Assembly: GCF_030127145.1 (NCBI RefSeq)
Contig: NZ_CP126158.1
Location: 2,046,001 to 2,110,000, forward strand
Origin: Halobaculum halobium
Lineage (GTDB): Archaea; Halobacteriota; Halobacteria; Halobacteriales; Haloferacaceae
Direction: 5' to 3'
DNA: 64,000 bases
Below, one piece after another: positions 20,538 to 45,573 of this stretch. A model generated the notes under the pieces. It had not been told where the DNA came from. It saw only the letters and a list, made by a program, of their open reading frames with translations, and did no database searches. The translations under genes were made by a program, and so were the position numbers. The stretch's first letter is position 1. The number at the start of each line of letters is the position of its first letter.

Positions 20538-20558
20538 GTTACTCACAACTTGAGTAAC
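20538..20558. promoter_or_regulatory. TrmB-type operator palindrome, copy 1 (before relic)
   Basis: The perfect inverted repeat GTTACTCA-N5-TGAGTAAC, with spacer CAACT, ends 2 bases before the ATG at 20561. It is identical to the site at 33554-33574, including the spacer, and sits in a duplicated ~50-bp promoter segment (ACACATTCATA...) that begins near 20506. It fits TACT-N8-GAGTA. Because the gene it serves is broken, this copy may only titrate the regulator. Confidence 0.7.
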
Positions 20559-20560
20559 CA

Positions 20561-20700
20561 ATGACGATCCTCGTCACCGCCGCCGATGGCTATCTCGGCA
20601 GTGCGCTCGTTCCGAACCTTCGAGATGACGAGTGGATCGACCGCCTACGCTTTCGTCGCGGTGATACCACCGGGTACAGCAACGTCGCTGTCTTTCGCAG
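20561..20700 (+). pseudogene. Chimeric fragment of nucleotide-sugar epimerase genes
   Basis: The first 11 codons (MTILVTAADGYL) match the start of the sulfoquinovose-synthase-like gene at 33577, down to its operator. The sequence then continues as GSALVPNLRDDEWIDR, matching the epimerase gene at 34821 (GSALVPILRDDERVDR). Next it jumps over about 25 codons to RFRRGDTTGYSNV, matching RFRRGDITEYGDV of that same gene. The frame then runs into unrelated sequence. It is thus a hybrid of the beginnings of two genes that are now adjacent, with an internal deletion. No function is expected. Confidence 0.75.
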
Positions 20701-20844
20701 AATTCGTGACCCGAGTATTCGATGTCCGGTTCTATCCGCGACGAACCTTCGGACCGATAACGAACAATATGATAACTTATCTAATGTCCACCAACGTTGA
20801 CGAATAGATGGGTATTATATACACCGTAACTCCAAAAGAGCGTT

Positions 20845-21621
20845 ATGTCGAAGTTTAATGAGGCGCTTTCAATCTTAAGAGATGATGGAATAATAAAACT
20901 ATTCAAAAAAATATACGAATCGTATTTTGAATATGTGGTTTTAAGTATTAGGGGAAAAAGCAATATAAATATTGATAGTTATAGTATAGAAGTTAATATT
21001 TCTAATAAAGGATCATATAAAGAGATGAGACACATAAATAATACAGAAATTTCTATTATCAAAGACATGTTAGATGAATCTGAGAAGAGTGACACTTTTT
21101 TAGATATTGGTGCTAATATGGGGGTACATTCAATATTTATTGATAAGAAGGTTGAAGATGTCTATTCGATAGAACCACATCCTGTGAATCTATCACATCT
21201 AAATATAAATTCACACATAAATCAATCTGGTATCAGTATGTATGCGTGTGGATTTTCAGATACAGCAGGCTATATTGAGATCAATAGCTCAAGAACGGGG
21301 ATGCAGGTAGATGGCAGAGCCTCAATTAAGCGACCAAATGATAACAAAAACAACAGTACTATTTTAGTAAGACTAGAAAAAGGTGATAAGTTCATACAGC
21401 AAAACGAATTAGATATTCCAGAAATGATAAAAGTAGATGTAGAAGGAGCTGAAATGAGTGTATTGCGTGGATTAGAGGACACAATAAATCACGCTAGTTG
21501 CAAAGTGATATATTGCGAATATCATAATAATGAAAAAAACATACGTAGTTTCTTAAAATCCGCTGGATATTCGACGACACTAATCGGAGATGGTCGGATA
21601 ATCAAAGCTATGAGGGAATAA
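20845..21621 (+). CDS. FkbM family SAM-dependent methyltransferase
   Basis: A 258-aa protein. The core has [18 protein letters not shown] (SAM-binding motif I), [15 protein letters not shown], and [20 protein letters not shown] near residue 200, which is the FkbM signature (KVDVEGxE). FkbM enzymes O-methylate sugars or lipids and are common in glycan clusters. The gene is extremely AT-rich (roughly one third GC) with Lys/Asn/Ile-rich codons, unlike every neighbour, which strongly suggests recent transfer from a low-GC archaeon or bacterium. A TATA-like ATTATATA lies about 25 bases before the ATG. It stands alone between gene relics. Confidence 0.85.
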
Positions 21622-21979
21622 CAATCGTCGCAAACGCGATATTGACGGTCTCTGATTTGGTAGCCCATCTAGTCCACAGATCTCCCGTCAAAGATGTCGC
21701 TGTTAGTTCGTCAAACCTTCCCTATGGCTATCTCTCCATAGGTCTGGCTACCCGGATACTCGTCCCACTTCGGACGCATCCGACTAGAGGCTCGGAAAGC
21801 CTTGTTCATCAACTGCTGTATTCGCGCTGTGTATTTAATACTCTCACCGGAACATACTTCGATCCTGGTAGAATCCTCATGCGAGATACAGCGGATGCAC
21901 TCAACAGCCCACGCTCTTCGTTTCATCAGTGAACGGGTCGATAGGCCGATAGGGAGATCCCGTGGCGTGGTCACATCCG
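21622..21979. other. Spacer with no recognisable gene
   Basis: Short frames on both strands (longest about 96 codons) have no recognisable motif, and their composition is not haloarchaeal-like. It lies between the AT-rich methyltransferase and the VapC relic, and is probably decayed DNA. Confidence 0.4.
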
Positions 21980-22187
21980 CTAATAGGGGTTGGTAGCAGT
22001 ACCAAGGCGGTCGAAATCATCAACAGCGATGGAGTCGACGGCGAACACATAGAGGTAGCCTAGCCCTTCGGTCTGCATGTAGGCGACGGTATATGCATCA
22101 ATGAACGAAATCTTTCGATGTCGTCGGAAGAGGATTTCACTGTTGTGAAGACACTCCCGCAACGAGTCAGTTCCTTTCTTCCATAAT
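21980..22187 (-). pseudogene. VapC (PIN-domain toxin) C-terminal relic
   Basis: A minus-strand frame without an ATG start reads SLRECLHNSEILFRRHRKIS, FIDAYTVAYMQTEG, YLYVFAVDSI and DRLGTATNPY before a stop. The pattern RRHR-ISF-DA-TVAYM followed by YLY-F and a final LxTATNP(Y/F) is the C-terminal third of haloarchaeal PIN-domain VapC RNases, including the conserved D after SF. The N-terminal two thirds with the first catalytic Asp are absent, and no VapB is present. The fragment is not functional. Confidence 0.7.
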
Positions 22188-22217
22188 ACTCATGTTAGCG
22201 GCGAACGACCCAGAGAT

Positions 22218-23669
22218 GTGAGAGATAAGCCAAATATTATCCTTGTGGTGTTGGACACGGTCCGGGCACGAAATCTCTCCTGCTACGGGTACCACCGACA
22301 AACCACGCCGTTCCTGACTGATTTCGCGTCAGACAACACCTTGTTCGAAAATGCGTTCTCTCCCGCGGAGTGGACTCCGACATCCCATGCGTCCATATTC
22401 ACCGGCACATACCCGTGGGTACATCAGACAGGGAGAAAGTCAAGTAAGCTACACCCCCAATTAGAGACCTTAGCTGAGGTTCTTCAGAGTGACGGATATG
22501 AAACGGTTGGATTCTCCAGCAACACATATATTAGCCCTGTTTTCGAATTCGATCGCGGGTTTGACACATTCTTATTCAATTCCTCAGCATTCGGAGAGCC
22601 GTTCAGTGACGGGGTTCCGATCCAGCAGATGAGACAAAGTATCGATTCAGCGACCTTCCCCGGTGAAGCGTGGCAGGCACTGAAATATATCCGAAATAAC
22701 GATGGGTCGCTCGTTCAGACGTTTGGAAACTGGATCGTAAAGAAACTGAACAAACGAGGTGTATTTTCACAAGCCGACAGTGGAGCTCAGAAGGCGAACA
22801 GTTTCGTCCGGGACTGGCTTCGGAGGCGAGATGATGACCAGCCATTTTTTCTATTTATAAACTATATGGAGGGTCACACTCCGTATCAGGCGCCTGATCA
22901 ATACCTCGCTGACTTCGGAGACCCGTCAGACGATCGGGGTTGGGAGAGCCTCGATCGATTCTTCGCCGATACTGACGGGGACCTCGACCCCACGGCCTCT
23001 CGACTTCAGGATCTGTACGACGGTTCTATTTCCTACCTGGACGCTCAATTACGAGAGTTGACCGAGAGTATTGACGAATACGCAGACGACGAGACACTTA
23101 TCATCATTACCGGCGATCACGGGGAGGCATTCGGCGAACACGATATATACGGACACACGGCAGGGCTCTACAACGAGATTACTCGAGTCCCACTACTCAT
23201 CAGGGATCCTGCCCGAAAAAAAGAAACTAGCTCTGAACCTGTCTCGATTCAATGGATCATGCCGACTCTGTTGGAACGAATCGGCCTCTCGCTACCCGAG
23301 TACTGTGTTGATGCGTCACTATTCGAGAGCAGCAACCCCCCGGTAGTCGGAGATACAAAAGCCCTCGACTTGTCGGTTGATATCCCGGACAGCATCGGTC
23401 ACCTGACTCAGCCAGCACGGTTCTGTGTGGATGACGAGTGGAAGCTCATCAGTGGGGTCGATAGCGACTATTCTGAGCTGTACATGATCAGTGATGAAGA
23501 AGAGACGGAAGACTGCTTCTCTCGATACCCCGACCGTGTGAGCGAATATCGGAACAGGCTCTCAGCCGAAATTGAGCGGTTTCCGGACCTTTCTGAGTCG
23601 TACAGCGGACAAGTATCTATCGACTCAGAAACCAGCCAACAACTCAAAGAACTTGGGTACGTGGAATGA
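22218..23669 (+). CDS. Sulfatase-like alkaline phosphatase superfamily hydrolase
   Basis: A 483-aa protein starting at GTG. It has the metal-binding NIILVVLDTVRARNLSCYGY at the N terminus, the nucleophile region EWTPTSHASIFTGTYP around residue 52, and the second metal site IITGDHGEAFGEHDIYGHT near residue 295. Classical sulfatases carry C/S-x-P-S-R, where Cys or Ser becomes formylglycine. Here the aligned residue is Thr (TPTSH), as in phosphotransferases of the superfamily. It may therefore act on phosphate or phosphodiester groups of glycans, or be a transferase, rather than be a true sulfatase. The protein lacks a signal peptide and ends in LKELGYVE, as related haloarchaeal proteins do. It opens a glycan-modification cluster. 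Confidence 0.78.
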   Translation: MRDKPNIILVVLDTVRARNLSCYGYHRQTTPFLTDFASDNTLFENAFSPAEWTPTSHASIFTGTYPWVHQTGRKSSKLHPQLETLAEVLQSDGYETVGFSSNTYISPVFEFDRGFDTFLFNSSAFGEPFSDGVPIQQMRQSIDSATFPGEAWQALKYIRNNDGSLVQTFGNWIVKKLNKRGVFSQADSGAQKANSFVRDWLRRRDDDQPFFLFINYMEGHTPYQAPDQYLADFGDPSDDRGWESLDRFFADTDGDLDPTASRLQDLYDGSISYLDAQLRELTESIDEYADDETLIIITGDHGEAFGEHDIYGHTAGLYNEITRVPLLIRDPARKKETSSEPVSIQWIMPTLLERIGLSLPEYCVDASLFESSNPPVVGDTKALDLSVDIPDSIGHLTQPARFCVDDEWKLISGVDSDYSELYMISDEEETEDCFSRYPDRVSEYRNRLSAEIERFPDLSESYSGQVSIDSETSQQLKELGYVE

Positions 23670-23844
23670 GAGCTCTCAATCTCTCTCGAGTGACGACGAT
23701 CACGCAGGGCTAAAAATCGGCCAAATACGCCCGGTCCGATCAAATACACTCTGTGGATGATCCGCCCGCGGAACCATTTTCTGATCAGCCGGAGATGTAA
23801 CTCTCGATGGACTCAATGAAACCAGTTGAGTCGAAAGGTGTATT

Positions 23845-25011
23845 TTGGACACCGTCAAATCGACTACATTGACAGATCAAGCCGGGGACGTACATCTTCA
23901 CATGCTTCTGGACACCTCAGCGAAGACGATCGAGGGCGTAACTCAACTGACTGATTTCTTTTCGTACCGGTTCGCCGGCGAATCTCTCGTTCATCGGGAG
24001 TACGTCTCGGTCGCTCCTGGCAGTTACCAGTACCTGATTCACCCCTCTGAAAGGAGCCTTTCCTGGCTATCGAACCGCGTCGATGGTCACTCCTATCGCA
24101 GGCGAATCGCGAGCCTGGGGATCAACGCGCTTGGGTCGACCCAGCCATCCCTACTCGGTAGCGTGCCCGGGGTCCGGAGTGTAACGCTCGAAGTACCACG
24201 GACGTGTCAGTTCGATATCGCAGTTGTCGGTATGCGGATTAAGGTTATCGACTATAGACGGGAGCGAGTATACACGCTCCCCCTCGCGAGGGAGCACCAC
24301 GAGAATATCCACGAGGAGGTCCGGACCAGACGGAACCTACCTCCATCGATCGACACGCCGCGAGTTCTCGATGCTGACGACACGTTCCCGTACTTCGTAG
24401 AGGAACTTTGCGACGGGCGTACGCCGTCGAACGTCGTCGAAGACTGGGATATTCTCCGCGAAGGACTTCGTCAATTGACTCCTCTCCACCGCGAGACGAG
24501 AAGCGTATGGGTCCCCACGGAGGAGGCGATAGATCAGGCGTTCGAAGCGCTCGCAGCATCCGAACTCTCGAACGATCCTGTCGTTAACCACACGAGAACG
24601 TTTCTCGACCAACACACACTTCCCAACGAACTACGTCGGTCCCGGATTCACGGTGATTTCCAAACCGGGAACCTGATAGTGCAAGATGACCGAGTAATTA
24701 TTCTGGACTGGGAGTCATCTAGGATTGATCTCGTCCTGGTTGACCTGTTCGATCCCTTCAAACGTCATTCGATCGAGAGTGACGACGGAGGCCCACTCGC
24801 TGACTTGATCCTACGGACCGGCGCGTTTCGCGCGATCTCGGACGACCTCCGGACCGGATTCGGACCTCTCGCTTGGGGTGATAACACCTACTACCCCGCC
24901 CTTCCAGTTGTGTACCTGTTGCTACAGTTGGCACACGACCCACCCGAGAGTACGCACAGCAGAAACCCAGTGTATGAGCTGCTTGTAGACGTCCTCGCCG
25001 ACGTGATGTAA
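23845..25011 (+). CDS. Aminoglycoside/choline-kinase-like phosphotransferase (APH family)
   Basis: A 388-aa protein; TTG at 23845 is the best start available, and another alternative start is possible. The C-terminal half has the Brenner motif SRIHGDFQTGNLIV (HGDxxxxN, catalytic Asp) and VIILDWESSRIDLVLVDLFD (metal-binding Asp), as in APH, choline and homoserine kinases. The N-terminal ~150 residues are divergent but have a plausible beta-rich lobe with PLAREHHENIHEEV, a region that may hold the helix-C Glu. By family it phosphorylates a hydroxyl on a small molecule, here perhaps a sugar or a lipid head group. It is convergent with the nucleotidyltransferase-kinase gene (12-bp gap). Confidence 0.72.
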   Translation: MDTVKSTTLTDQAGDVHLHMLLDTSAKTIEGVTQLTDFFSYRFAGESLVHREYVSVAPGSYQYLIHPSERSLSWLSNRVDGHSYRRRIASLGINALGSTQPSLLGSVPGVRSVTLEVPRTCQFDIAVVGMRIKVIDYRRERVYTLPLAREHHENIHEEVRTRRNLPPSIDTPRVLDADDTFPYFVEELCDGRTPSNVVEDWDILREGLRQLTPLHRETRSVWVPTEEAIDQAFEALAASELSNDPVVNHTRTFLDQHTLPNELRRSRIHGDFQTGNLIVQDDRVIILDWESSRIDLVLVDLFDPFKRHSIESDDGGPLADLILRTGAFRAISDDLRTGFGPLAWGDNTYYPALPVVYLLLQLAHDPPESTHSRNPVYELLVDVLADVM

Positions 25012-25023
25012 CGATGGTACCTG

Positions 25024-26400
25024 TCATCGGACATAGTTGGAGTACGCGAGCACTTCGCCGTCGCGAAACACCGCTTCAAGCACATCATCGACGACGCTGT
25101 CGATATCCTGTGTTGCATCTACCTGTTCCAAATCCAACTGCTCGAAGTCGGCGAGCATCCGCTCGATCGACCTGCGGTCGTATTCCGACCGGTCGGCGAT
25201 GGTTCTTGCGTCACCACCCAGCACGACTCCGGTGAATGCCGTCCCCTCGAACAACTGAAAGGTTCGTTCCGGATGCGAATCGAAATCGTCGTACGCGACC
25301 ACATCATGCACGAATCGGTCCGCGACGAGTACGCCGTGGGTTTGCGACCGCGCAGATAGCAGCCGAACAGCGATGTCTGCGATGTGGAACCCTGACTTCC
25401 ATGATGGTCGCTTCGCCGGCAGCGATTCGGGACCGGACTGACCGTGGTCGTTTTCATGGTCGGATTCCTCCGTTTGAGGGGAAATATTCACCAATCGTTT
25501 CAGCCGTGTCCGCCAGTCACCGACGCGTTGGAGGACAGTCTTTCCAAATCGGAGCGGCACGCTCTGGGCGTTGTAAGTTCCCAGTTGTGCACGGGTGACT
25601 TGGAAGCCAGCCTCACGCAACACCGTGGCCACGTTGTCGGTGACCGTTGTTTTCCCGGCTCCGTCTGGACCCAGTATCGCGATCACGAACACCGTCTCGG
25701 TCGGATCGTACGTTTTGAGCCCCCGCTTGAGCGGTATCACGATCTCACGGCGCACCACCAAGTTCCATACGAACCGCTGGACACGTGACGGGTGTCGTAC
25801 TAGTGCTACACCAACGAGTGGCCACTTGAGACGTACCGCCCGGTCCAAATTCCCGTTGAGTGCACCCCTTGCAGCGTACCGACCAATCTGTCCGAAGACA
25901 GCGGAGGCGTGGGTCAATACCTGCTCTTCGCTGACACGGTCGGCGAGGTTTCGTAGCGTCTCCTCATACTCCCGACGGAACCCGTTCTTGTTCAACGCGC
26001 CGTGGAATAGGAGTTCGACGAATAGGTCCTCCTCACTCGGGACGCGGACCCCTTCGTGCCGGCGGGCACGCTCCATCGTTCGGGCCCCATCGATGATCGG
26101 AATCCCGTTGTAGGTCGGTGCGTCCCAGTAGAAATCCAATACGAGGAGTCGCCTTGACGGGACGTGGAATTTGAGGTACGTTGTTTGCTGACTTGTGTCC
26201 CCTCTCCCCCGCTGAAAGCCGAGGCCAGTGAGGGCGGAGTCCACCGCTCTACACGCCGTAGCCGGTGCGAGGATGTCCACATCGCCATCGACCTCCGCAC
26301 CGGTGAGAAACTCGAAGTTCCGGAGGACGCAGTAGTCGATCCCACGGTCATCTAACTTATCGATCGCCTGAAGAGCAAGTGCGTTCAGCGCTTCCGTCAT
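25024..26400 (-). CDS. Nucleotidyltransferase-like / thymidylate-kinase-like fusion protein
   Basis: A 458-aa two-domain protein. The N-terminal domain (to about residue 210) begins with LDDRGIDYCVLRNFEFLTG and VDGDVDILAP, the pattern of the 'uncharacterised nucleotidyltransferase' family (NTP_transf_5-like), and ends with EEDLFVELLFHGALNK. The C-terminal domain begins with VIAILGPDGAGKTTVTDNVA (P-loop, near residue 250) and has VLVADRFVHDVVAYDDF, the DR(Y/F) motif of thymidylate kinases. In glycan clusters such fusions are thought to make or transfer nucleotidyl or phosphate groups on sugars. Its ATG overlaps the stop of the upstream phosphodiesterase gene by 4 bp, so the two are coupled. 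Confidence 0.7.
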   Translation of the reverse strand: MTEALNALALQAIDKLDDRGIDYCVLRNFEFLTGAEVDGDVDILAPATACRAVDSALTGLGFQRGRGDTSQQTTYLKFHVPSRRLLVLDFYWDAPTYNGIPIIDGARTMERARRHEGVRVPSEEDLFVELLFHGALNKNGFRREYEETLRNLADRVSEEQVLTHASAVFGQIGRYAARGALNGNLDRAVRLKWPLVGVALVRHPSRVQRFVWNLVVRREIVIPLKRGLKTYDPTETVFVIAILGPDGAGKTTVTDNVATVLREAGFQVTRAQLGTYNAQSVPLRFGKTVLQRVGDWRTRLKRLVNISPQTEESDHENDHGQSGPESLPAKRPSWKSGFHIADIAVRLLSARSQTHGVLVADRFVHDVVAYDDFDSHPERTFQLFEGTAFTGVVLGGDARTIADRSEYDRRSIERMLADFEQLDLEQVDATQDIDSVVDDVLEAVFRDGEVLAYSNYVR

Positions 26401-27956
26401 AGATAGCCCATATCCCGGAGTCGATCCTCCACATCCTCGTTCGTGGTCGATTTCTGTTCTGGATCCACCAGTGTGGGTGCGCGTGGCCGGATGGTGGTTA
26501 CGTCATCGGTTCGTCGATGTGTACTGAGTGCTTCGGTCATTGGTGAGGCGTCGATGTCGGCGGGAACCCCAACACCGAGTTCGTGAAGCACCGTCGGGGC
26601 GAACTCTTCGGCAGCGATCGTCAGCCCCGCAGCCGTCGGTATCTCCGCTCCGCTCGCTGCAAACACGCCGTCCGGGTTGTAAATGTGATATCCCGACCGA
26701 TGTGACGAGCCACCAGTCGGTGACGTGAGTGACCGGGAGAGCGTGTGGTTGAGGTGGTACTCTCGGGTTGGCAATACGATCACGTCCGGGAACCGGTCGA
26801 GATACCGTCCGGTATAGACGTCCTCTCGTCTGGCGACGAACCGGAACACCGGCTCTCCTTGGATGTGAAGCGCTCGTAGGTCGGAAACCAACGAATCGAC
26901 AATCTCACTGCGTCTGTTGGAAGCTAGAACATTTATCCCCCACTCGTTCACCATGACAGCCGTCGACCGCTCGTAGTCAACGCCCGGAACTGTCACATTC
27001 CGGCGAGTGCTACCCGCCGAGTGGCTCGCCGCCTCATCACCGCTGGTGGCTGCCCCTCCCATCTTTGAGAGCACAGATTGCGCCTTGTCTGTGAGGCCGT
27101 TCGGCACGTACTTCGACACCAGCGGTCCGATGTACCTCGACATCGGTGCCGCGGGGGTCGTTCGAAGATAGCCCCGCCGCTCGAGCCACGTATTCAGGTG
27201 GAGTTCCCGTTCGTAAACGGCTTCGAACCCATGATCAGAGATTACGTAGGTTACCTCCGGCTCGAATCGGTCGAGCGTCTGCTTGAGTAACCCGTCGATG
27301 AGTTCGTAGTACTCCGCGAGCACATCCTTCTCATCCCATGCGAGGTGCTGTAGTTTGTCCGCGGCCCCAATCCAAAACATCGCGAGATCGGGATCCGTCT
27401 CCGCGATGATGTCCTCGAAGACCCCGTGCTGCGTTCGAGTTGTCGTACTTGCGGCCTCAATGAAGCACGGAATGTCCGCATTCTTTTGTAATTCATCGAG
27501 TTCTGCGAGCCCATCATGAAACGATTCTACCCCCGGGACATCGTCCGGCAGGTGTTCCGGGAACATGTAATCCGTAGCGTCCGGTGGGGTATAGAGGTCG
27601 CCCGAAACGACAACTCCGTTCTCGACGGGTCGTGGCGGGTAAGTCGTTCGAACCCCGACGGCGCATGTTCTCAGTCCCTGTCGCCCGGCGATTTCCCAAA
27701 GTACCTCGTCCTCGATATCAGTGAAATCCTGAAGCGTCCCATCGACCCGCTCGAACCCAACCATCCCCGTCGTGCCTGGGTTCTTTCCCGTTAGAAGAGT
27801 TGGAACCGCGATCCCGGTGTAAGCTGGTATTGTCGACCTGAGCGTACCACTGGCTCCGGTCTCGATCATCCGAGAAAGCGTTGGGATCCGACCGCTGTCC
27901 TGTAACTGTTTCAGTAACTCCCACTCAGCGCCATCGATCCCCCATATCAGATTCAT
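26397..27956 (-). CDS. Type I phosphodiesterase/nucleotide pyrophosphatase-like protein
   Basis: A 519-aa protein of the alkaline phosphatase superfamily. It has NLIWGIDGAEWELLKQL (first metal-binding Asp), the nucleophile region IPAYTGIAVPTLLTGKNPG (Thr nucleophile), MFWIGAADKLQHLAWDEKD and TYVISDHGFEAVYERELHL (DHGF metal motif). The architecture is like nucleotide pyrophosphatase/phosphodiesterases and AP2179-type haloarchaeal proteins. It ends in RLRDMGYL. No signal peptide is present, so it probably acts in the cytosol on nucleotide sugars or phospho-glycan intermediates. It is first in a two-gene minus operon and divergent from a flippase gene 121 bp away. Confidence 0.8.
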   Translation of the reverse strand: MNLIWGIDGAEWELLKQLQDSGRIPTLSRMIETGASGTLRSTIPAYTGIAVPTLLTGKNPGTTGMVGFERVDGTLQDFTDIEDEVLWEIAGRQGLRTCAVGVRTTYPPRPVENGVVVSGDLYTPPDATDYMFPEHLPDDVPGVESFHDGLAELDELQKNADIPCFIEAASTTTRTQHGVFEDIIAETDPDLAMFWIGAADKLQHLAWDEKDVLAEYYELIDGLLKQTLDRFEPEVTYVISDHGFEAVYERELHLNTWLERRGYLRTTPAAPMSRYIGPLVSKYVPNGLTDKAQSVLSKMGGAATSGDEAASHSAGSTRRNVTVPGVDYERSTAVMVNEWGINVLASNRRSEIVDSLVSDLRALHIQGEPVFRFVARREDVYTGRYLDRFPDVIVLPTREYHLNHTLSRSLTSPTGGSSHRSGYHIYNPDGVFAASGAEIPTAAGLTIAAEEFAPTVLHELGVGVPADIDASPMTEALSTHRRTDDVTTIRPRAPTLVDPEQKSTTNEDVEDRLRDMGYL

Positions 27957-28077
27957 TGTTCGGGGGGAGTCAATCGGCCCATGTAACCCTTACCCCATCG
28001 GTGTCCGAAGACCGATCGACGCTCCGTTCACTGTCTAGTTTCGGCATATACAAACTGGGGCAGTCTGAGTTTGGACT

Positions 28078-29604: not shown

Positions 29605-29649
29605 ACACCGAACCATCCGGGAGCTTTTCGGGTCGGTGCGCCGCACTGC

Positions 29650-30183
29650 TTATAAGAGAAGTTCACGGAGCAGCCACGGTCCGTACTGCGGATATCGGGC
29701 GGCAAGGTACGCGGAGTTCCGAAGAGTCGCCCAACGCCCTTGTCCCGGTGACTCATGTTCCTCGTGATGTACGGCACAGCGGGGAAGTTCGTTGAGCGTC
29801 TTGCCACGTGAGAGCGCGTTCAGGCAGAACTCCGTGTCTTCCATGTGATTGAGACGCTCGTCGAATCCTCCGAGCTCCTCGAAGTCCACACGGTGTACGA
29901 TCATGAACCGAGTGAGGAGGAGACCGAAATCGAAGTCCTCCAGGCCTAAGATTGTCCCCGTCTCGGTCGCTTCGACCTGTTTCCATAGGAAGGACTCGTC
30001 GAAAGACACATCGTCGTCACAAAACACGAGGACATCTCCGCTCGTCCGACGAGCACCCTCATTTCGCGCTTCCGATCGGTTCCCCTCCTGAACGACTGCC
30101 GTCTCTACCCCCGCCGGAACGGAATCCAATGTCCAAGGGTCCCCGTCGAGTGTGGGAATGACGATGCTAATCGAGTCGCTCAT
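29650..30183 (-). CDS. GT2 family glycosyltransferase (short)
   Basis: 177 aa from the ATG at 30183 (MSDSISIVIPTLDGD); the longer frame runs through the upstream gene and is rejected. It has SEARNEGARRTSGDVLVFCD followed by DDVSFDESF, the GT2 DXD metal site, and GGFDERLNHMEDTEFCLNAL, the acceptor-side (E/D)D motif. It is shorter than typical GT2 proteins (about 250-300), as the loop after the nucleotide-binding core is trimmed, but it ends naturally. It overlaps the GT4 gene upstream by 17 bp and is third in a three-glycosyltransferase minus operon. Confidence 0.8.
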   Translation of the reverse strand: MSDSISIVIPTLDGDPWTLDSVPAGVETAVVQEGNRSEARNEGARRTSGDVLVFCDDDVSFDESFLWKQVEATETGTILGLEDFDFGLLLTRFMIVHRVDFEELGGFDERLNHMEDTEFCLNALSRGKTLNELPRCAVHHEEHESPGQGRWATLRNSAYLAARYPQYGPWLLRELLL

Positions 30184-31279
30184 ATATTTCCTCCAGTCGA
30201 GCCGTCTGTGCGTCCCAGCTAAACTGGGACGCCGTCTCTCGAGCGTTCCTCCCGAGTCGTTCCCGAAGCGAGGCGTCATCGGCGAGTCGGCGTAACGCCG
30301 CTGCGAGGCCATCGACATCGCCGGGAGGAACAAGGAGTCCGTTTTTTCCGTCGACGAGATACTCCTCGATCGCGTCTATGCGGGTAGACACCACAGGTGT
30401 TCCACAAGCCATCGCCTCGATGTTTACCATCCCGAAGCTTTCGTGATGTGATGGAAGGCAGAACACGTCCGCAGCAGTGTAGTAGTGCGCGACCTCTCCG
30501 TGATCGACTGCTCCGGTGAACACTACGTTGTCCTCGATATCGAGATCTCGAACCGCTGCTTGAAGATCGTCCGCCAGCGTCCCATCACCGACGAGATAGA
30601 GTCTAGTTCGGTCGCCAAGACGCGCCTGTGCATTCAATAACTCGAACAGTCCCTTCCCCTCGTCAAGTCGTCCAACGTACAGAACAGCCACAAGCTCCTC
30701 GTCGAACACCGGATCGGCAGAAGGAGAAAACATCGTAAGATCAACTCCCGGGTAGACAACGTCCTGCACTTGGATATCCAACCACTTTTTCACCCGGGAA
30801 GCCGTCGCACGACTGTTCGCGAGATAGGCGTTCGGGTGGCCAAGTCGTGCCATCGCCTTCCAGCGAACGGAAGGCTGTTTAATACCAGGGAACCGGAACA
30901 CCATCGGTACAGGTGAGACCCGGCTGACTAGGATGTTATCTAGGTAATAATGTGTCGAGACGATATCTACCTGCTTATCCATCTCCTCGAAGATCCCTCT
31001 GCGCCGGGCATTCCGGAACATCGTTAGCGACTCAACTTCCGCGGGAATGACCGGCGTTGCTCCTGTGATTGCTCTGTTGGTCGCAGACTCTTTGCTTATT
31101 AGAGGTATCTGTTCTATCCGTACGTCGAGATTGAGAACTTCCTCAATGATCTCTCCTTCACCACAATAAAAAACAATCTCGTGGTCGGACTGGAGCTGCT
31201 TTGCGATCTGGCGGATGAATGTCTCTGTCCCACCCGATCGCGCGAAGCCAACTCGTGGATTATAGAATCCAATCCTCAT
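30167..31279 (-). CDS. GT4 family glycosyltransferase
   Basis: A 370-aa GT-B protein. It begins MRIGFYNPRVGFARSGGTET (glycine-rich acceptor loop) and has VAVLYVGRLDEGKGLFELL, LYLVGDGTLADDLQ, AADVFCLPSHHESFGMVNIE and CGTPVVSTRIDAIEEYLVDG. The EX7E motif is in ESFGMVNIE. Length agrees with the family. Its ATG overlaps the stop of the upstream GT4 gene by 4 bp. It adds one sugar in the second glycan cluster; the specificity cannot be read from sequence. Confidence 0.87.
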   Translation of the reverse strand: MRIGFYNPRVGFARSGGTETFIRQIAKQLQSDHEIVFYCGEGEIIEEVLNLDVRIEQIPLISKESATNRAITGATPVIPAEVESLTMFRNARRRGIFEEMDKQVDIVSTHYYLDNILVSRVSPVPMVFRFPGIKQPSVRWKAMARLGHPNAYLANSRATASRVKKWLDIQVQDVVYPGVDLTMFSPSADPVFDEELVAVLYVGRLDEGKGLFELLNAQARLGDRTRLYLVGDGTLADDLQAAVRDLDIEDNVVFTGAVDHGEVAHYYTAADVFCLPSHHESFGMVNIEAMACGTPVVSTRIDAIEEYLVDGKNGLLVPPGDVDGLAAALRRLADDASLRERLGRNARETASQFSWDAQTARLEEIYERLD

Positions 31280-32442
31280 TTGATATTTCCACCGGTACTG
31301 TTGACGGTATGCTCAAACGCTTCTTCAAGCAGTTCTTCGAGCTTGTGCTGAAATGTTTCGGTTGAGAATTCATCGACGTTCATTCCGTCCGTGCCCGGCC
31401 TCTCGGAACGCATCCGGTCTATCGCATCCCGGATCCCGTCAGTGGTTCCGTCATGGAGGTAGCCGTTTTCGCCGGATCGAACGTACACACCGGGAAAGCC
31501 TTCGTCCCGAGCGAGTACGGGTTTTCCGCTCGCGTTCGCTTCGATCGGAACGATACCGAAGTCCTCGTTTCTCCCATTGAATACAACGGCTGTACATCCT
31601 GCGAGAAGTTCGATCTTTTCATTCTCACTCACGAATCCTTTATAATCGATGTTTTCAGCCCCTCTGATGCGATCGATCGTAGCCTCGGCGATATCTCCGC
31701 GGCCGCCAGCCATTACGAGGTGTTCATCGAGTTTCTCGAAGGCATCGATAACCGCCGGGACGCCTTTCTCCTCGTCAAGTCGCCCTAAATGTAAATAATA
31801 CCCCTGATCGCCCTCGTCCTGATACTGATTGAGGTCGAGTGGCGGATAAAGGACGGTACTGTCCCGTTTGTAGTACTTCCAGAGCCGCCGTTTGATGACT
31901 GGGCTGTTGACGAAATACTGGTCGACGCGTGGGTCGAGAGTTTGGTCTCTCATCCGCAGATACCGCACAAGCGGACGAGCGAGCATACCGAGCATCGAGT
32001 CTTTTCGATCATGATAAAGGTCATAAAACCACCGCGGGGGAGAATGACAGTAGTTGACATGGAGCGTGTCATCGGGCGTGATGACTGCCCGGGTCGTTGA
32101 ACCTGATGTCACGAGGATATCAGGGTCACCCACGGTCCTCCAATCGACATCTTCCCACTGCGCGTATTCGAAAACACGACCGGCGCTCTGCTGGAGCCGC
32201 CGAATCTGTGGATAATCAAGAGACGACGTTACGTCTACGAACTTAATATCGCCGTACGGATTCGGCTCTTTCGGGTTCGGATCCCCGAGCGTATGAACCA
32301 CACTGACATCGAGGGCCTCAGCGAGTTTCGTGACGAGATACTCCGCGCCTCCCCAAGCATCCACATGCCAGTGAGCGACAGCGATGTCGAGGCTGTCGAG
32401 ATCTCCCTCTTGGCTCTTACTTGAACCAGAGGTCGACTGCAT
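31276..32442 (-). CDS. GT4 family glycosyltransferase
   Basis: A 388-aa GT-B protein. After a ~20-residue polar lead it has IAVAHWHVDAWGGAEYLVTK, HVNYCHSPPRWFYDLYHD, YYLHLGRLDEEKGVPAVIDA and NGRNEDFGIVPIEANASGKP, and ends with SGENGYLHDG. The HSPPRWFYDLY stretch is characteristic of GT4 proteins related to mannosyltransferases WbaZ/AglE-type. It leads the minus operon 32442-29650. A possible GAATATATATTC palindrome at 32699-32710 belongs to the divergent promoter region between it and the methyltransferase. Confidence 0.86.
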   Translation of the reverse strand: MQSTSGSSKSQEGDLDSLDIAVAHWHVDAWGGAEYLVTKLAEALDVSVVHTLGDPNPKEPNPYGDIKFVDVTSSLDYPQIRRLQQSAGRVFEYAQWEDVDWRTVGDPDILVTSGSTTRAVITPDDTLHVNYCHSPPRWFYDLYHDRKDSMLGMLARPLVRYLRMRDQTLDPRVDQYFVNSPVIKRRLWKYYKRDSTVLYPPLDLNQYQDEGDQGYYLHLGRLDEEKGVPAVIDAFEKLDEHLVMAGGRGDIAEATIDRIRGAENIDYKGFVSENEKIELLAGCTAVVFNGRNEDFGIVPIEANASGKPVLARDEGFPGVYVRSGENGYLHDGTTDGIRDAIDRMRSERPGTDGMNVDEFSTETFQHKLEELLEEAFEHTVNSTGGNIK

Positions 32443-32728
32443 GGGATGTAAACTTCTGAGTGAAGAGAAAAGTATGTCGTTCCGTCGTCTCCTTTCCGAG
32501 CACAGACTTGATTATGAGCGAGATTGTAACCCCTACAGACCACCTCGAAGTGAGCTGGTCCGTGAGTGTTGGGGCCCTAGCCAAATGGGTAGACCGGCTA
32601 TCGTTCACGATGATTATGATGGGAGGTATATGATTGGAAAGAGTCGGTTCGTACAGTCGGTGGGCTGAGGAAACACCTCGTGTTACAAAATACGAAAAGA
32701 ATATATATTCTGATTTGACTTTTAATGT

Positions 32729-33343
32729 GTGGTTAGATCTGATAAAATCGAGTACATAAGCAGGATCTGCGCAGGAAAAAACGTGCTTCATCTTGGGTGC
32801 GTTGGAAACGAACAAACAGTTGGTGCAGATCGGTGGCTTCATGCAAAGTTGCACGAGGTCAGCGAAAACTGCGTAGGAATGGACATTGATGAATCAGGTG
32901 TCGAAGAGATGAACGAACAGGGATATCATGCTGTCGTTGATGATGCCCAGAACTTTCACGTTGATGATCAATTTGATGTGATTGTAGCAGGTGAAATAAT
33001 TGAACATCTCGCAAATCCCGGAGGGATGTTCGAATCAGCGAGGAGAACTCTTTCCGAAGGTGGTACATTCATAATTACAACGCCGAACCCCTTCGCGTTA
33101 ATACGGTTTATTAAGTACATTTCCCCGATTCATGAGTTCAGTGTATTTGAAGAACACGTTTCTTGGTTCGATAGAATTACACTCAGCCAATTTGCTTCAC
33201 GGTATGGATTCGTTGAAAGTGACCACTATTACGCAAAAGCTGATACTTTTGGACTGACACAAATTCTCCATGATATAGGATTTGAAAAGTTTGAAGACGA
33301 CTTCATTGGAGTATATCGTTTAAATAAAAAACCAGGAAAATGA
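32729..33343 (+). CDS. Class I SAM-dependent methyltransferase
   Basis: A 204-aa protein starting at GTG (no in-frame ATG is near). It has NVLHLGCVGNEQ (motif I), CVGMDIDESGVEEMNEQGYH, FDVIVAGEIIEHLANPGGMF (post-I/motif II) and GGTFIITTPNPFALIRFIKY. This is the Methyltransf_11/UbiG-type fold, often found in glycan clusters where it methylates a terminal sugar. The GC content is lower than its neighbours (about 42%), suggesting acquisition. A strong TATA-like ATATATATT precedes it at about 32701, so the message is nearly leaderless. Confidence 0.82.
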   Translation: MVRSDKIEYISRICAGKNVLHLGCVGNEQTVGADRWLHAKLHEVSENCVGMDIDESGVEEMNEQGYHAVVDDAQNFHVDDQFDVIVAGEIIEHLANPGGMFESARRTLSEGGTFIITTPNPFALIRFIKYISPIHEFSVFEEHVSWFDRITLSQFASRYGFVESDHYYAKADTFGLTQILHDIGFEKFEDDFIGVYRLNKKPGK

Positions 33344-33553
33344 CTATTCTTCCTTACTAATATTGATAGATTATTGAGGCGGGACGGAACAACAAACGCT
33401 GAAGTTGGAGCTTTGCCGACTGGGTCTATTCCAGACGTTACGAACTGATTCAACGGGGGGTTCACAACCAATTTCGCACCGGGCTGAAGCATCAGAGTCA
33501 TATTGGGAAGTCACTTGTTAACAATAGTACCAACACATTCATATCGAATCAGA

Positions 33554-33574
33554 GTTACTCACAACTTGAGTAAC
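33554..33574. promoter_or_regulatory. TrmB-type operator palindrome, copy 2
   Basis: The inverted repeat GTTACTCA-N5-TGAGTAAC (spacer CAACT) lies 2 bases before the ATG of the sulfoquinovose-synthase-like gene. It fits TACT-N8-GAGTA, the known site type of Halobacterium TrmB. A TATA-like TTCATATC starts about 15 bases upstream, so a bound regulator would cover the transcription start and act as a repressor. Confidence 0.75.
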
Positions 33575-33576
33575 CA

Positions 33577-34791
33577 ATGACGATCCTCGTCACGGGCGCC
33601 GACGGCTACCTCGGTTGGCCCACGTCGCTGCGCATCGCCTCGCGAACCGATGACCGCGTCGTCCTCGTCGACAACTTCGGCCGGCGTGAGTGGGTCTCGG
33701 AAGTTGGCTCGGTCTCTGCGACGCCCGTCGCGGACATCGAGACACGCCTCAAGGCCGCGGAAGAAGTCCACGGTCTCACGAACCTCTCGTTCGTCGAGGG
33801 TGACCTCACTGACCGGTCGTTCGTCGACGAACTCCTCCAAGTACACGAGCCCGAGACGATCGTCCACACGGCCGCTCAGCCGAGCGCCCCCTACTCGCAG
33901 ATCAACGGCGAGCGCGCCAACTACACCCAGCACAACAACATGCAGTCTACGCGGAACCTCGCGTGGGGGCTCCACGAGAACGACCTTTCGGACACGCACC
34001 TGATCGAGACGACCACCACGGGCGTCTACGGTGCCCCCGAGTTCCCCATCCCCGAGGGTGGTGCGACAATGGAGAACCAAGGCGACCGCGACGACGTACC
34101 CTTCCCCGCGATGGCGGGCAGCTGGTACCACCTCACCAAGTCCCACGACGCGGCGAACCTCCGTCTCGCGAACAAGCAGTTCGACATCCCCGTCTCGGAC
34201 GTGCGCACCGCGATCACCTACGGTGCTGCCACCGAGGAGACCGCGGCCGACGAGCGCCTCGCGACGCGCTTCGACTTCGACTACTACTTCGGCGTCGTCG
34301 CTCACCGCTTCGCCGCGCAGGCGATCGCCGGGTATCCAATCACGGTGTACGGCAAGGGCGAACAGCGCAAGCCGTTCATCTCCCTTGAAGACGCTGTTGA
34401 GGGACTCGCCCGGCTCGCGCTGAACGATGTCGACGACCGACCGGATGACCACGTCGTTTACAATCAGGTCACGCGCCCGATCTCCATCGTCGAGATGGGG
34501 ACGACGATCGCGGATGTTGCGAACGAATTCGGCTTCGATACCGCGGTCGAGCACTTCGAGAACCCGCGTGATGAGGATGAGACCCACCAGATGGAGATCG
34601 AGAACGACCGCTACATGGACCTGATCGGTGACCAGCAGGTCACCTTCGAGGAGGGTATCCGCGGCGTCTTCGAGCGGCTGGCCGACCACGCCGACCGCAT
34701 CGGTGCCTACGAGGACCGGTTCCTCCCCGGTGTTCTCGAGGATCGACATGACGACGACAAGAAGGAGGCACCCGCGGCCGCAGACGACTAA
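33577..34791 (+). CDS. agl3: UDP-sulfoquinovose synthase-type NAD-dependent epimerase (SQD1/Agl3 family)
   Basis: A 404-aa extended short-chain dehydrogenase. It shows the complete SQD1 pattern: VTGADGYLGWPTSLRIASRT, DNFGRREWVSEVGS, IVHTAAQPSAPYSQING, RANYTQHNNMQSTRNLAWGL, ETTTTGVYGAPEFPIPEGG, the catalytic YHLTK with MAGSWYHLTKSHDAANLRLA, and YGKGEQRKPFISLEDAV. By family it converts UDP-glucose and sulfite to UDP-sulfoquinovose, used for sulfolipid or, in Sulfolobus (Agl3) and Haloferax-type N-glycans, for S-layer glycosylation. It is preceded immediately by a TrmB-type operator and followed by two further epimerases 29 and 67 bp apart. The acidic C-terminal extension after residue 375 is a halophilic adaptation. 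Substrate is inferred from the family. Confidence 0.85.
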   Translation: MTILVTGADGYLGWPTSLRIASRTDDRVVLVDNFGRREWVSEVGSVSATPVADIETRLKAAEEVHGLTNLSFVEGDLTDRSFVDELLQVHEPETIVHTAAQPSAPYSQINGERANYTQHNNMQSTRNLAWGLHENDLSDTHLIETTTTGVYGAPEFPIPEGGATMENQGDRDDVPFPAMAGSWYHLTKSHDAANLRLANKQFDIPVSDVRTAITYGAATEETAADERLATRFDFDYYFGVVAHRFAAQAIAGYPITVYGKGEQRKPFISLEDAVEGLARLALNDVDDRPDDHVVYNQVTRPISIVEMGTTIADVANEFGFDTAVEHFENPRDEDETHQMEIENDRYMDLIGDQQVTFEEGIRGVFERLADHADRIGAYEDRFLPGVLEDRHDDDKKEAPAAADD

Positions 34792-34820
34792 GCGACTCCA
34801 CCCCTCCCACTACCTCACGC

Positions 34821-35780
34821 ATGCACGTTCTCGTTACCGGCGGCTGTGGCTACATCGGCAGCGCGCTCGTTCCGATCCTTCGGGACGACGAGCGGGTCGA
34901 CCGGATCACTATCTTGGACAACCTCTCGATGTCCTCACCGCGTAACCTCATGGGGAGCGGCCTCGGGAGTGACGACAGCCTGCGCTTCCGTCGCGGCGAC
35001 ATCACCGAGTACGGCGATGTCGAGTCGGCGATGCGCGGGTGTGATACCGTCATCCATCTCGCGGCGATCACCGGCGCCGACAGCACACACGACAGACGCG
35101 AGGAGACGTTCCACGTGAACTACGACGCGACGCGGAACGTCCTCCGAGCCGCAGGAAAGCTCGACGTCTCGAACGTCGTGTTCGCCTCCTCGTGTAACAT
35201 CTACGGCCGCGCGGCCTCCCGCGACATCGACGAGACGGTTGACCCCGATCCGCTAAACCCCTACGCTGAATCGAAACACGAGGCGGAGGACCTCCTCACG
35301 AACGCGATCGACGAATACGGCTACGACGGGACCGCGCTCCGGATGAGCACGAACTACGGCTACTCGCCGGGCATGCGATTCAACCTCGTCGTCAACCACT
35401 TCGTCTTCCGTGCGATCACCGACCGGCCGCTCACGGTGTACGGCGACGGCTCGAACTGGCGCCCGTTCATTCACGTGAAGGACGCCGCTCGCGCGTACGC
35501 CCAAGCCGCACTCGAACCGGAGAACTGGCCCGAACAGGTCTACAACGTCGGGGCCAACGACAGCAACTACCGCGTCGAGGAGATCGCCGAGGCCGTCCGC
35601 GACGAACTCGACCGTGATCTCGACATCACATATCTGGAAGACGAGCACCCGGGGCCCTCGTATCACGTGAATTTCGACCGCGTCGCCGAGACGGGCTTCG
35701 AGCCCGAACACTACCTTCGAGCGGGGATAGCCGATTTGGCCAAGCGATTCCAGAACGGAACTGCAGGGGGACACCGATGA
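34821..35780 (+). CDS. NAD-dependent nucleotide-sugar epimerase/dehydratase
   Basis: A 319-aa extended SDR. It has HVLVTGGCGYIGSALVPILR (GxxGxxG), DTVIHLAAITGADSTHDRRE, FASSCNIYG, the catalytic YAESKHEAE and NWRPFIHVKDAARAYAQAAL. This resembles UDP-glucose 4-epimerases and related haloarchaeal enzymes, and specificity is open. It is part of the agl3-led operon. Its start region is the source of the chimeric fragment at 20588-20695, including the RFRRGD sequence. Confidence 0.85.
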   Translation: MHVLVTGGCGYIGSALVPILRDDERVDRITILDNLSMSSPRNLMGSGLGSDDSLRFRRGDITEYGDVESAMRGCDTVIHLAAITGADSTHDRREETFHVNYDATRNVLRAAGKLDVSNVVFASSCNIYGRAASRDIDETVDPDPLNPYAESKHEAEDLLTNAIDEYGYDGTALRMSTNYGYSPGMRFNLVVNHFVFRAITDRPLTVYGDGSNWRPFIHVKDAARAYAQAALEPENWPEQVYNVGANDSNYRVEEIAEAVRDELDRDLDITYLEDEHPGPSYHVNFDRVAETGFEPEHYLRAGIADLAKRFQNGTAGGHR

Positions 35781-35847
35781 TCGGTGCATCCCCCAATTCC
35801 GGAACTGGATCGCGAGGTATTTGCACTGACCCCGGTGGTGAACGTAC

Positions 35848-36834
35848 ATGAGCACGACAGATGACTTCCACGTCACGGTCACCGGTGCGGCAGGGTACAT
35901 CGGCAGTCGCGTCGTCAAAATTCTCCAGCGTGACCACCCGGAGTGGGAGATCACCGCCCTCGACAATTTCTATCTCGGGACTGTTCGCCAGATCGATGAC
36001 GTCGAAGTCGAACACGTGGACATCCGCGATCGCGACTACCTCGAGGACGCGCTCGCGGGCGCCGACCTCGTCATGCATCTCGCGGCGATCAGCGGCGTCG
36101 ACGACTGCGACACCAACCGTGATCTGGCGTACGACGTGAACATCACGGGCACGAACAACGTCGCGTGGTTCTGCCGCAAGACCGGTGCTGGTCTGGTCTT
36201 CCCGTTCAGCATGGCTGTCCTCGGCGACCCGGAGTCGTTTCCCATCTCCGTCGACGACCCGCGTGACCCGCTGAACTGGTACGGGCGAACGAAGGTGCTC
36301 AACGAGCGTGCCATCGAGTCCTTCGCCGACGACGCGTTCCCGGCGCACCTGTTCTTGAAGTCCAACCTCTACGGCGAACACACGATCGGCGACACCCGCG
36401 TCTCGAAGGGGACCGTGATCAACTTCTTCGCGAACCGAGCCGCCGCCGGAAACACCCTCACCGTGTATGAACCGGGGACGCAGGCGCGCAACTTCATCCA
36501 CGTGAAGGACGTGGCTCGTGCGTACGTCCACAGCGCCGAACGGCTCTGCGAGCAACTCGCCGCCGACGAGACCGGAGTCGAGAAGTACGAGATCGCTTCC
36601 CATGAGGACCCCGGCGTGATGGATGTCGCCGAACTCGTCCAACAGTACGCCGCGGAGATCCTCGACTCCGAGGTCGACATCGAGGTCGTCGAGAACCCGC
36701 GAAGTGGGGAGACGATGGTTGAGTCCTTCGAGGTGGACATCTCGGCGGCCGAGGAAACGCTCGGATGGACTCCCCAGGAGACGGTGGAGGGGTCGATTCA
36801 GGAGCTCCTCGAAGCGAAGGCACGGGGAGAGTAA
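35848..36834 (+). CDS. NAD-dependent nucleotide-sugar epimerase/dehydratase
   Basis: A 328-aa extended SDR. It has VTVTGAAGYIGSRVVKILQR, ADLVMHLAAISGVDDCDTNR, FPFSMAVLG, the catalytic YGRTKVLNERA and ARNFIHVKDVARAYVHSAER, with C-terminal ETLGWTPQETVEGSI of the dehydratase family. It probably makes a dehydrated or epimerised UDP-sugar for surface glycans. A serine in FSMAV takes the place usually held by the SDR catalytic Ser/Thr, so activity is plausible. It is last in the operon and ends 3 bp from the convergent trmB-like gene. Confidence 0.85.
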   Translation: MSTTDDFHVTVTGAAGYIGSRVVKILQRDHPEWEITALDNFYLGTVRQIDDVEVEHVDIRDRDYLEDALAGADLVMHLAAISGVDDCDTNRDLAYDVNITGTNNVAWFCRKTGAGLVFPFSMAVLGDPESFPISVDDPRDPLNWYGRTKVLNERAIESFADDAFPAHLFLKSNLYGEHTIGDTRVSKGTVINFFANRAAAGNTLTVYEPGTQARNFIHVKDVARAYVHSAERLCEQLAADETGVEKYEIASHEDPGVMDVAELVQQYAAEILDSEVDIEVVENPRSGETMVESFEVDISAAEETLGWTPQETVEGSIQELLEAKARGE

Positions 36835-36837
36835 CCC

Positions 36838-37698
36838 TCAGGCGTCGCCGTACGGGTCCGCGTCGAGCGTGTCGTGGTTCCACGTCAGATCGAAGTAGCG
36901 ACCCAGCCCCGCGACGAACGAGTGGTTCTCGGTCACCGCGGCCTGTCGCTTGTGTAGCGGGACGTTCTCCTCCTCGACGAGGAGCACCGCGTCACCGGAG
37001 TCGTACTCCAAGCTAGGGTCGATGAGCGTTCCGCGCCAAGGGAGTCGTGTCGCGCTGAAGCGATACTCGACTGCGGGATATTCCGCACGGAGATACTCCA
37101 CCGTCTCTCGTTGGATCGATCTGTTCTCTGTTTCGAGGAGATCCGGATCGAGAAACAGGATTCGGAGTTCACAGTCTCGTTCGTAGGCGTCCGCGAACGC
37201 GGGTTCGATTGCCTCGAAGTACTCGAAACTCTTCGTGATGATCCGAATTTCTTGCTGCGCGTCCGCGTATAACGTCCGGGTCTCGCGCTCGCTCGGGTCA
37301 CCGACATCGACGACGTGAAAGAGCTCCTCCGTCGGAGAGATGTCCTCGCTGGCCTGCTCGTACAATGGGCCGAACGCTGCGACGAACTCCTCACGGGTGT
37401 CTTCGATCTGTGCCCGGTCGGTCTCGTAGGTCTGTCGGCGGTTCTCGATCGCCCGGTCGAGGATCTCCTCGGGCGACTTGGGTTGGTACTGTTTCGGCCG
37501 ACCGGGGATAACCTTGAGGTACCCCAGATCGGCCAACTCATCGAGGACGCCGTAGATTCGTGCCTTGGGGATCCCGGTTGCCTCGGAGAGATCCGGTGCC
37601 GTCGTTCGCCCCAACTCGATCAGACGTTCGAGCGCCTGCTCCTCGTACTCCGTCAGATCGAGTGGATCGAGAAGCGCGTCCCTGTCGCGGCTGCTCAT
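36838..37698 (-). CDS. trmB: TrmB-family sugar-responsive transcriptional regulator
   Basis: 286 aa from the ATG at 37698 (MSSRDRDALLDPLDLTEYEE); the longer frame lacks conservation. The N terminus is the TrmB winged helix with YEEQALERLIELGRTTAPDL, ATGIPKARIYGVLDEL and DLGYLKVIPGRPKQYQP. A coiled helix (SPEEILDRAIENRRQTY) leads to a C-terminal sensor domain with phospholipase-D-like fold (EIRIITKSFEYFE, LRILFLDPDLLE). Known TrmB proteins bind glucose or maltodextrin and bind TACT-N8-GAGTA-type palindromes. The three matching sites in this window, one 99 bp upstream in the divergent gene start, point to autoregulation and control of nucleotide-sugar genes. The name is by family; true orthology to Halobacterium TrmB is not shown. 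Confidence 0.8.
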   Translation of the reverse strand: MSSRDRDALLDPLDLTEYEEQALERLIELGRTTAPDLSEATGIPKARIYGVLDELADLGYLKVIPGRPKQYQPKSPEEILDRAIENRRQTYETDRAQIEDTREEFVAAFGPLYEQASEDISPTEELFHVVDVGDPSERETRTLYADAQQEIRIITKSFEYFEAIEPAFADAYERDCELRILFLDPDLLETENRSIQRETVEYLRAEYPAVEYRFSATRLPWRGTLIDPSLEYDSGDAVLLVEEENVPLHKRQAAVTENHSFVAGLGRYFDLTWNHDTLDADPYGDA

Positions 37699-37796
37699 AC
37701 CAACCGTATGCGCGTCCGATTGATAAGCCACGGCGGTCGATGCTCGTTCTCACGATCGGTTTTCGCTCCGATAGCTTCATATCGGTGGCGTCTGCA

Positions 37797-37817
37797 GTTA
37801 CTCACAAGATGAGTAAC
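37797..37817. promoter_or_regulatory. TrmB-type operator palindrome, copy 3 (overlaps a start codon)
   Basis: GTTACTCA-N5-TGAGTAAC with spacer CAAGA. It differs from the other two sites only in the spacer, and the ATG at 37809 lies within it. A TATA-like TTCATATC lies at about 37775-37782. It lies between the divergent trmB-like gene and a small gene, so one bound regulator could control both. Confidence 0.72.
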
Positions 37818-37943
37818 TCAACGCGGGACGATGATCACCTCCACGATCTCGAGGACGGTGCGGGCTGCACAGAGATCTGGGAGAAGCTCAGCGAACAGCG
37901 TGAGGAGGCGGCACAGACAACGGACCGCAGCCAGGACGACTAG
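37809..37943 (+). CDS. Small acidic conserved-looking protein (44 aa)
   Basis: A 44-aa protein (MSNSTRDDDHLHDLEDGAG, then CTEIWEKLSEQREEAAQ and an acidic tail). It has one Cys in GCTEIWE. Strong acidic composition and the operator overlapping its start codon support a real gene. Haloarchaeal genomes hold other small proteins with a DLxDGxGCTEIWExLSxxR pattern as I remember, of unknown function. It lies 56 bp before the first GlmU-like gene and may share its transcript. Confidence 0.6.
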   Translation: MSNSTRDDDHLHDLEDGAGCTEIWEKLSEQREEAAQTTDRSQDD

Positions 37944-37999
37944 AGCCGTCGGTGTTGCGGGTGCGAAAGACACAGTAGTCCGCTCACGAGTTCACGGGT

Positions 38000-40998: not shown

Positions 40999-41050
40999 AC
41001 GCCGATCGCGAACCGTAACGAGTTACCCGTAGCCGGAACCCCACTGATTC

Positions 41051-45407: not shown

Positions 45408-45440
45408 CTAACCACGACTGACCGGCCGTAACCCGGTCAC

Positions 45441-45466: not shown

Positions 45467-45573
45467 CGACGCGCCCACACCGACCAGCGACGGCGCCGTC
45501 GATGGATACGGCTCGGCGCTCTCGACACACGAGACGACAAGGGCTTTACCCGACAGCGCCGATCCACGAACGA

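Follow-up and report, generated by a model that had tools for sequence, protein, structure and literature searches.

A TrmB-family protein and its probable palindromic operator at sulfosugar genes of Halobaculum halobium and other haloarchaea

We have analysed 64,000 nucleotides of the Halobaculum halobium genome (NZ_CP126158.1, positions 2,046,001 to 2,110,000; this whole stretch is called the window, and positions are counted from its first letter), which encode a TrmB-family regulator beside nucleotide-sugar genes and hold three copies of the perfect 21-base palindrome GTTACTCA-N5-TGAGTAAC. From sequence comparison, we consider it likely that the local regulator binds this palindrome and represses two promoters, that of an operon headed by an SQD1-like UDP-sulfosugar synthase gene and that of a small-protein gene, and sulfosugar supply would thus be under its control. 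No description of this regulator, its motif or its regulon was found by text search of an open-access library, in which TrmB and sulfoquinovose are treated together only in a review on canonical TrmB. We regard the regulon as new and its regulator as one of a known kind.

Operator sites in the genome

The regulator gene, the three palindromes and the relic behind one of them lie in the window as follows.

20538 to 20558, no strand: operator copy on a decayed duplicate, 2 bases before a relic ATG (20561)
20561 to 20800, plus strand: relic gene, an SQD1-like start fused to fragments of the epimerase gene at 34821, with a stop after 79 codons
33554 to 33574, no strand: operator 1, GTTACTCACAACTTGAGTAAC, ending 2 bases before the ATG (33577) of the SQD1-like gene
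36838 to 37698, minus strand: TrmB-family regulator, 286 residues, winged helix-turn-helix and PLD-like C-terminal domain
37797 to 37817, no strand: operator 2, GTTACTCACAAGATGAGTAAC, covering the ATG (37809) of the small-protein gene, where this gene and the regulator gene diverge

No further copy was found in the window even when 3 mismatches were allowed, a threshold at which shuffled sequence gave a mean of 0.18 matches. An earlier note on this DNA had reported the palindrome at these three positions and nowhere else, and the whole assembly (3.46 Mb, 95% complete), scanned by pattern search, agrees: the three copies are its only full-motif matches at 0 or 1 mismatch, about 2e-4 full motifs being expected per genome from base composition. 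At 2 mismatches, a scan of the whole genome for the core added only two weak places, both on contig C3. The note had also placed each copy at a gene start, and the distances to the ATG codons check out, but its gene order has to be reversed, as the intact SQD1-like gene follows 33554 and the relic follows 20538.

All three sites fit TACT-N8-GAGTA, and the likeness which that note saw to the published binding motif of Halobacterium TrmB, TACT-N7/8-GAGTA (PMC4158304), is real. The genome scan for the looser TACT-N8-GAGTA that it had proposed found about 20 places, not hundreds; apart from the three operator copies, the pattern was about as frequent as a reversed-pattern control.

Co-occurrence of regulator and operator in haloarchaea

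We surveyed 292 haloarchaeal genomes, calling regulator orthologs at E below 1e-40. An ortholog is encoded in 100 genomes and a perfect site is present in 63, all of which fall within the 100, so that none of the 192 ortholog-free genomes carries one; the reversed pattern gave zero matches across all genomes. The SQD1-like gene occurs in 112 genomes, 99 of which also encode the regulator (99 of the 100 ortholog genomes), and the 13 genomes, from several families, that retain SQD1 without the regulator are a natural deletion test. Among 125 distinct SQD1 promoters, with a site counted at up to 3 mismatches, all those from regulator-carrying genomes have the site (112/112), located -1 to 6 bases (mostly 1-2) before the ATG, compared with 1 of 13 from genomes without the regulator. 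What was computed directly from the genomes is where the sites lie and that they occur almost only together with the regulator. On these sequence counts the palindromes are very likely real operators, and we infer direct binding by the regulator. The co-occurrence and the SQD1-promoter counts also back the earlier proposal that the sites tie nucleotide-sugar genes to the local TrmB-family protein.

It seems very unlikely that the binder is instead the canonical glucose-responsive haloarchaeal TrmB (VNG1451C type), with these genes forming part of a general glucose regulon. Every site does fit the canonical motif TACT-N8-GAGTA, a canonical TrmB is encoded in this genome, and Halobacterium TrmB has been tied to S-layer glycosylation (PMC4245038). 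However, canonical TrmB is found above cut-off in 248 of the 292 genomes, most of them without such a site, and in some site-carrying genomes, G017 and G061 for instance, the same search with the canonical model gave nothing better than weak hits (best E 1e-16 to 1e-17). Haloarcula hispanica ATCC 33960 (G084) encodes a regulator ortholog (G084:C3:1151763-1152575) and carries a perfect operator at SQD1, yet of the 15 chromatin immunoprecipitation sequencing (ChIP-seq) peaks of its canonical TrmB none is annotated as epimerase or SQD1 (PMC10817205 Table 2). Considering its presence in most genomes and the peaks without an SQD1-annotated gene, canonical TrmB is not a likely binder.

We regard it as scarcely credible that the palindrome is a 5' RNA element or a translational signal rather than a protein operator. 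It is an inverted repeat and stands at a start codon, but its spacer is variable while both arms are nearly fixed with no compensatory change, its presence depends on the gene for a DNA-binding protein, and the coding start is not at a fixed distance from operator 2.

As for the origin of the cluster (33554-42256), seven other sampled genomes of the same genus have neither the regulator nor SQD1 nor perfect sites. The cluster is therefore patchy in the genus, and it may have moved horizontally.

Regulon size and conserved targets

When 23 genomes were scanned at one mismatch, each had 1-3 sites. In 75 loci of about 20 kb each (1.47 Mb in total), 88 of the 91 sites found at up to 2 mismatches stand at SQD1 or small-protein starts; two of the remaining three are at small-protein genes, and one, in Natribaculum, precedes a nucleotidyltransferase gene. 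In all 36 loci that hold the SQD1 start, this gene has the same pair of epimerase genes behind it, and in related loci a site marks the start of 68 of the 73 small-protein genes. By these sequence counts, the conserved targets appear to be two, the SQD1-epimerase-epimerase operon and the gene for a protein of about 44 residues.

A nucleotidyltransferase gene follows the small gene in this window and at four other loci, and operator 2 may therefore also govern hexosamine supply (nucleotidyltransferase, glmS, glmU). The Natribaculum site (L091, 10905-10925) lies just before the nucleotidyltransferase-glmS genes, two bases ahead of an open reading frame of 14 codons, which suggests that these genes can be direct targets.

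Outside central metabolism, few haloarchaeal regulators have a defined operator and a defined target set, and we found none described that is dedicated to a surface-sugar pathway. In the genetic model Haloarcula hispanica, the N-glycan is known to contain sulfo-quinovosamine, and the operator at the SQD1-like gene is perfect. The regulon would also offer a lead to the function of a near-universal small protein.

Promoter geometry and mode of control

Aligned on the operator, the SQD1 promoters (n=112) show a conserved A-rich and then A/T-rich signal at -23 to -10, corresponding to the transcription factor B recognition element and TATA box (BRE/TATA), and the small-gene loci (n=66) show a conserved BRE/TATA signal at -31 to -17. 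In the window, two TATA-like elements fall on these conserved signals.

33538 to 33544, plus strand: TTCATAT, the TATA-like element in front of the SQD1-like gene, lying 10-16 bases ahead of operator 1
37776 to 37782, plus strand: TTCATAT, the TATA-like element in front of the small-protein gene, lying 15-21 bases ahead of operator 2

The transcription start usually follows the TATA box by 26-27 bases, and the predicted start therefore lies inside the operator. The sites thus show the archaeal repressor geometry known from the Thermococcales glycolytic motif (TGM), in which the operator follows BRE/TATA and spans the predicted transcription start. In Thermococcales, a site that covers the start, downstream of BRE/TATA, serves repression, and an upstream site activation (PMC4158304). 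Considering this precedent, repression by blocked polymerase recruitment is favoured and appears better supported than activation, where the earlier note had allowed either. In this case, the protein encoded at 36838-37698 would sit as a dimer on GTTACTCA-N5-TGAGTAAC, cover the transcription start and repress both promoters. A sigma-70 promoter scan was set aside as uninformative for archaea.

That the local protein mainly activates, or both activates and represses, is unlikely. TrmB-family proteins activate when bound upstream of BRE/TATA, and operator 2 precedes the ATG of the regulator itself by about 99 bases; however, both conserved targets have the operator downstream of BRE/TATA and over the predicted start, and no site is conserved at the regulator gene itself. 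We also cannot follow the earlier note in holding that the regulator controls itself, as the operator tracks the small-protein gene and not the regulator gene. In G039, G050 and several loci (e.g. L069, L072, L107, L131), the small-protein gene lies apart from the regulator gene and the site is with the former, and in 29 of 95 cases the 500 bases upstream of the regulator gene hold no site. Since the site stays with the small-protein gene when the two genes lie apart, autoregulation is unsupported and was dropped as a general rule. In this window, where the two genes are divergent, operator 2 might also affect the regulator gene, although the counts do not imply this.

The regulator protein

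The regulator belongs to the TrmB family in the broad sense, matching PF01978 over residues 13-77 (E=4.5e-16, 58.9 bits, cut-off 25.6). The sugar-binding domain PF11495 gave no match even at E=10, which places the protein outside the class that combines PF01978 and PF11495, and its 286 residues compare with about 350 in canonical TrmB. It matches the canonical haloarchaeal TrmB model NF047392 with 33.3 bits in the helix-turn-helix only (cut-off 500) and the TrmBL2 model NF041141 with 39.3 bits (cut-off 530), and it is also far under the cut-offs of the TrmB and TrmBL1 models. With its AlphaFold model (mean predicted local distance difference test, pLDDT, 79; predicted template modelling score, pTM, 0.55), a fold search returned TrmBL2 as the best match, then TrmB and PLD-fold proteins, at whole-chain TM-scores so low (about 0.4) that the domain orientation in the model is uncertain. 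The nearest solved chain by profile is also TrmBL2. Considering that PF11495 was not found and that the fold resembles TrmBL2, which itself has no sugar-binding domain (PMC4158304), sugar sensing by the known TrmB route, as in Halobacterium TrmB, is unsupported. The inducer would perhaps be a sugar nucleotide or a sulfur compound.

Canonical haloarchaeal TrmB (VNG1451C of Halobacterium, HAH_1548 of Har. hispanica) resembles the window regulator in its TrmB-type winged helix-turn-helix and in the TACT-N8-GAGTA of its operator. However, it carries a sugar-binding domain at its C-terminus, and gluconeogenesis and other metabolic promoters are under its control, whereas the window regulator is shorter, gave no match to that domain and is matched by about two sites in each genome. 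TrmBL1/Tgr of Thermococcales shares with it a palindrome of 5-base spacer downstream of BRE/TATA at repressed promoters (TGM, TATCAC-N5-GTGATA), but recognises another half-site, acts globally and possesses the sugar-binding domain. TrmBL2 of Thermococcales likewise combines a winged helix-turn-helix with a PLD-like domain and lacks the sugar-binding domain, but it is an abundant chromatin protein on coding and intergenic DNA, whereas the window regulator appears to be site-specific with a tiny regulon, and would thus show a site-specific role for a TrmB relative without the sugar-binding domain. CsmR of Haloferax is also a haloarchaeal palindrome binder, but a small 13-kDa protein with a different motif.

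Target genes and likely product

The genes that follow the two operators are these.

33577 to 34791, plus strand: SQD1-like UDP-sulfosugar synthase, 404 residues, plant SQD1 matched at E about 1e-67
34821 to 35780, plus strand: NAD-dependent sugar epimerase/dehydratase 2 (PF01370)
35848 to 36834, plus strand: NAD-dependent sugar epimerase/dehydratase 3 (PF01370)
37809 to 37943, plus strand: 44-residue protein of a haloarchaeal family, motif HL..(E/D)DG(A/C)GCxE(I/V)WExxSExR
38000 to 39193, plus strand: sugar-1-phosphate nucleotidyltransferase with a hexapeptide (GlmU-like) domain, 56 bases after the small gene
39193 to 40998 (start approximate), plus strand: GlmS, glutamine:fructose-6-phosphate aminotransferase (TIGR01135, 737 bits, residues 177-776 of the open reading frame 38668-40998)
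41051 to 42256, plus strand: archaeal GlmU-type nucleotidyltransferase/acetyltransferase (TIGR03992, 520 bits, above cut-off)

The first target, the operon at 33577-36834, would lead to a UDP-linked 6-sulfo-sugar. Its SQD1-like protein is a clear homolog of plant SQD1 (1qrr/1i24), conserving TxGxYG and YHLxK with the Thr, Tyr and Lys that we take to be the catalytic residues of SQD1-type enzymes. With the UDP-sulfoquinovose synthases SQD1 and Agl3 it shares this homology and the active-site region including YHLxK, but the association with glmS and glmU and the 6-sulfo-QuiN glycan of Har. hispanica suggest an amino-sugar substrate here. The S-layer N-glycan of that species is 6-sulfo-QuiN-(1,6)-[Glc-(1,2)-]Gal, with a DolP-QuiNS intermediate (PMC9943897). 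In its genome, an STT3/AglB-like gene comes after the SQD1/epimerase operon, with other nucleotide-sugar genes flanking, and the window likewise has many glycosyltransferase, flippase and other polysaccharide genes. Judged from the SQD1 homology, this gene content and the known glycan, the operon product is most likely a sulfosugar for surface glycans, perhaps sulfoquinovosamine. Beside the sugar cluster, at 42690-46572, lie a gene for a 905-residue PGF-CTERM protein and then an exosortase/archaeosortase-like gene.

The second target is the small-protein gene at 37809, here probably cotranscribed with the nucleotidyltransferase, glmS and glmU genes, which would provide hexosamine. The 44-residue family is present in 275 of the 292 genomes, with extra copies in many, and the second copy in this genome (G000:C1:1150538-1150621) has no operator. 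Its conserved GCGC/GAGC cysteines might form a metal site. HAH_0188 and HAH_2805, small proteins that Har. hispanica TrmB binds, were considered as relatives, but no link was established. In Har. hispanica, the relative at 2.71 Mb adjoins a histidine kinase, with no riboflavin synthase recognised there, and the one at 0.23 Mb is off the interpolated position of HAH_0188.

A fuller account, which we offer tentatively and hold to be doubtful, is that the regulator runs a two-part regulon made up of UDP-sulfoquinovosamine synthesis, in which the SQD1-like enzyme would use UDP-N-acetylglucosamine (UDP-GlcNAc) and sulfite, and of the regulated copy of the 44-residue protein. In this case, the PLD-like domain would sense a sugar nucleotide of the pathway or sulfur, and the 44-residue protein would act in the pathway or in its control.

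Several points weigh against repression of sulfosugar supply by the local protein. Fisher's test gives 4e-38 for the co-occurrence of regulator and operator, a value that is only indicative and overstates independence because the genomes are related. Genome G087 has a one-mismatch operator at its SQD1 start (L172, G087:C4:77694-77714) and no detectable regulator ortholog, which a second, more lenient search also failed to find; this could be a recent regulator loss or an assembly gap. Also, we infer repression from geometry only. The exact product of the SQD1-like protein is unproven, as its 341.8 bits against the UDP-sulfoquinovose synthase model NF041015 fall below the curated cut-off of 575, and the authors of the H. 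walsbyi genome took the same operon for sulfolipid synthesis (PMC1544339).

The decayed duplicate at 20538

Over 86 bases, the 20538 copy with its flanks shares 91% identity with the promoter and gene start at 33554, and beyond those 86 bases the region turns into stretches 80-82% identical to fragments of the gene at 34821. By sequence, this operator copy probably has no working gene under its control any more. Since it is a decayed duplicate of the operator 1 promoter, only two of the three sites are independent, and the three independent targets of the earlier note come down accordingly. The closest orthologs found are those of Halobaculum saliterrae, in which the regulator/SQD1 cluster is present in two full copies, indicating that duplication occurs in this group. 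Right after the relic, at 20845-21621, stands an A+T-rich gene for an FkbM-type methyltransferase, possibly a recent acquisition; the window otherwise has 60% G+C.

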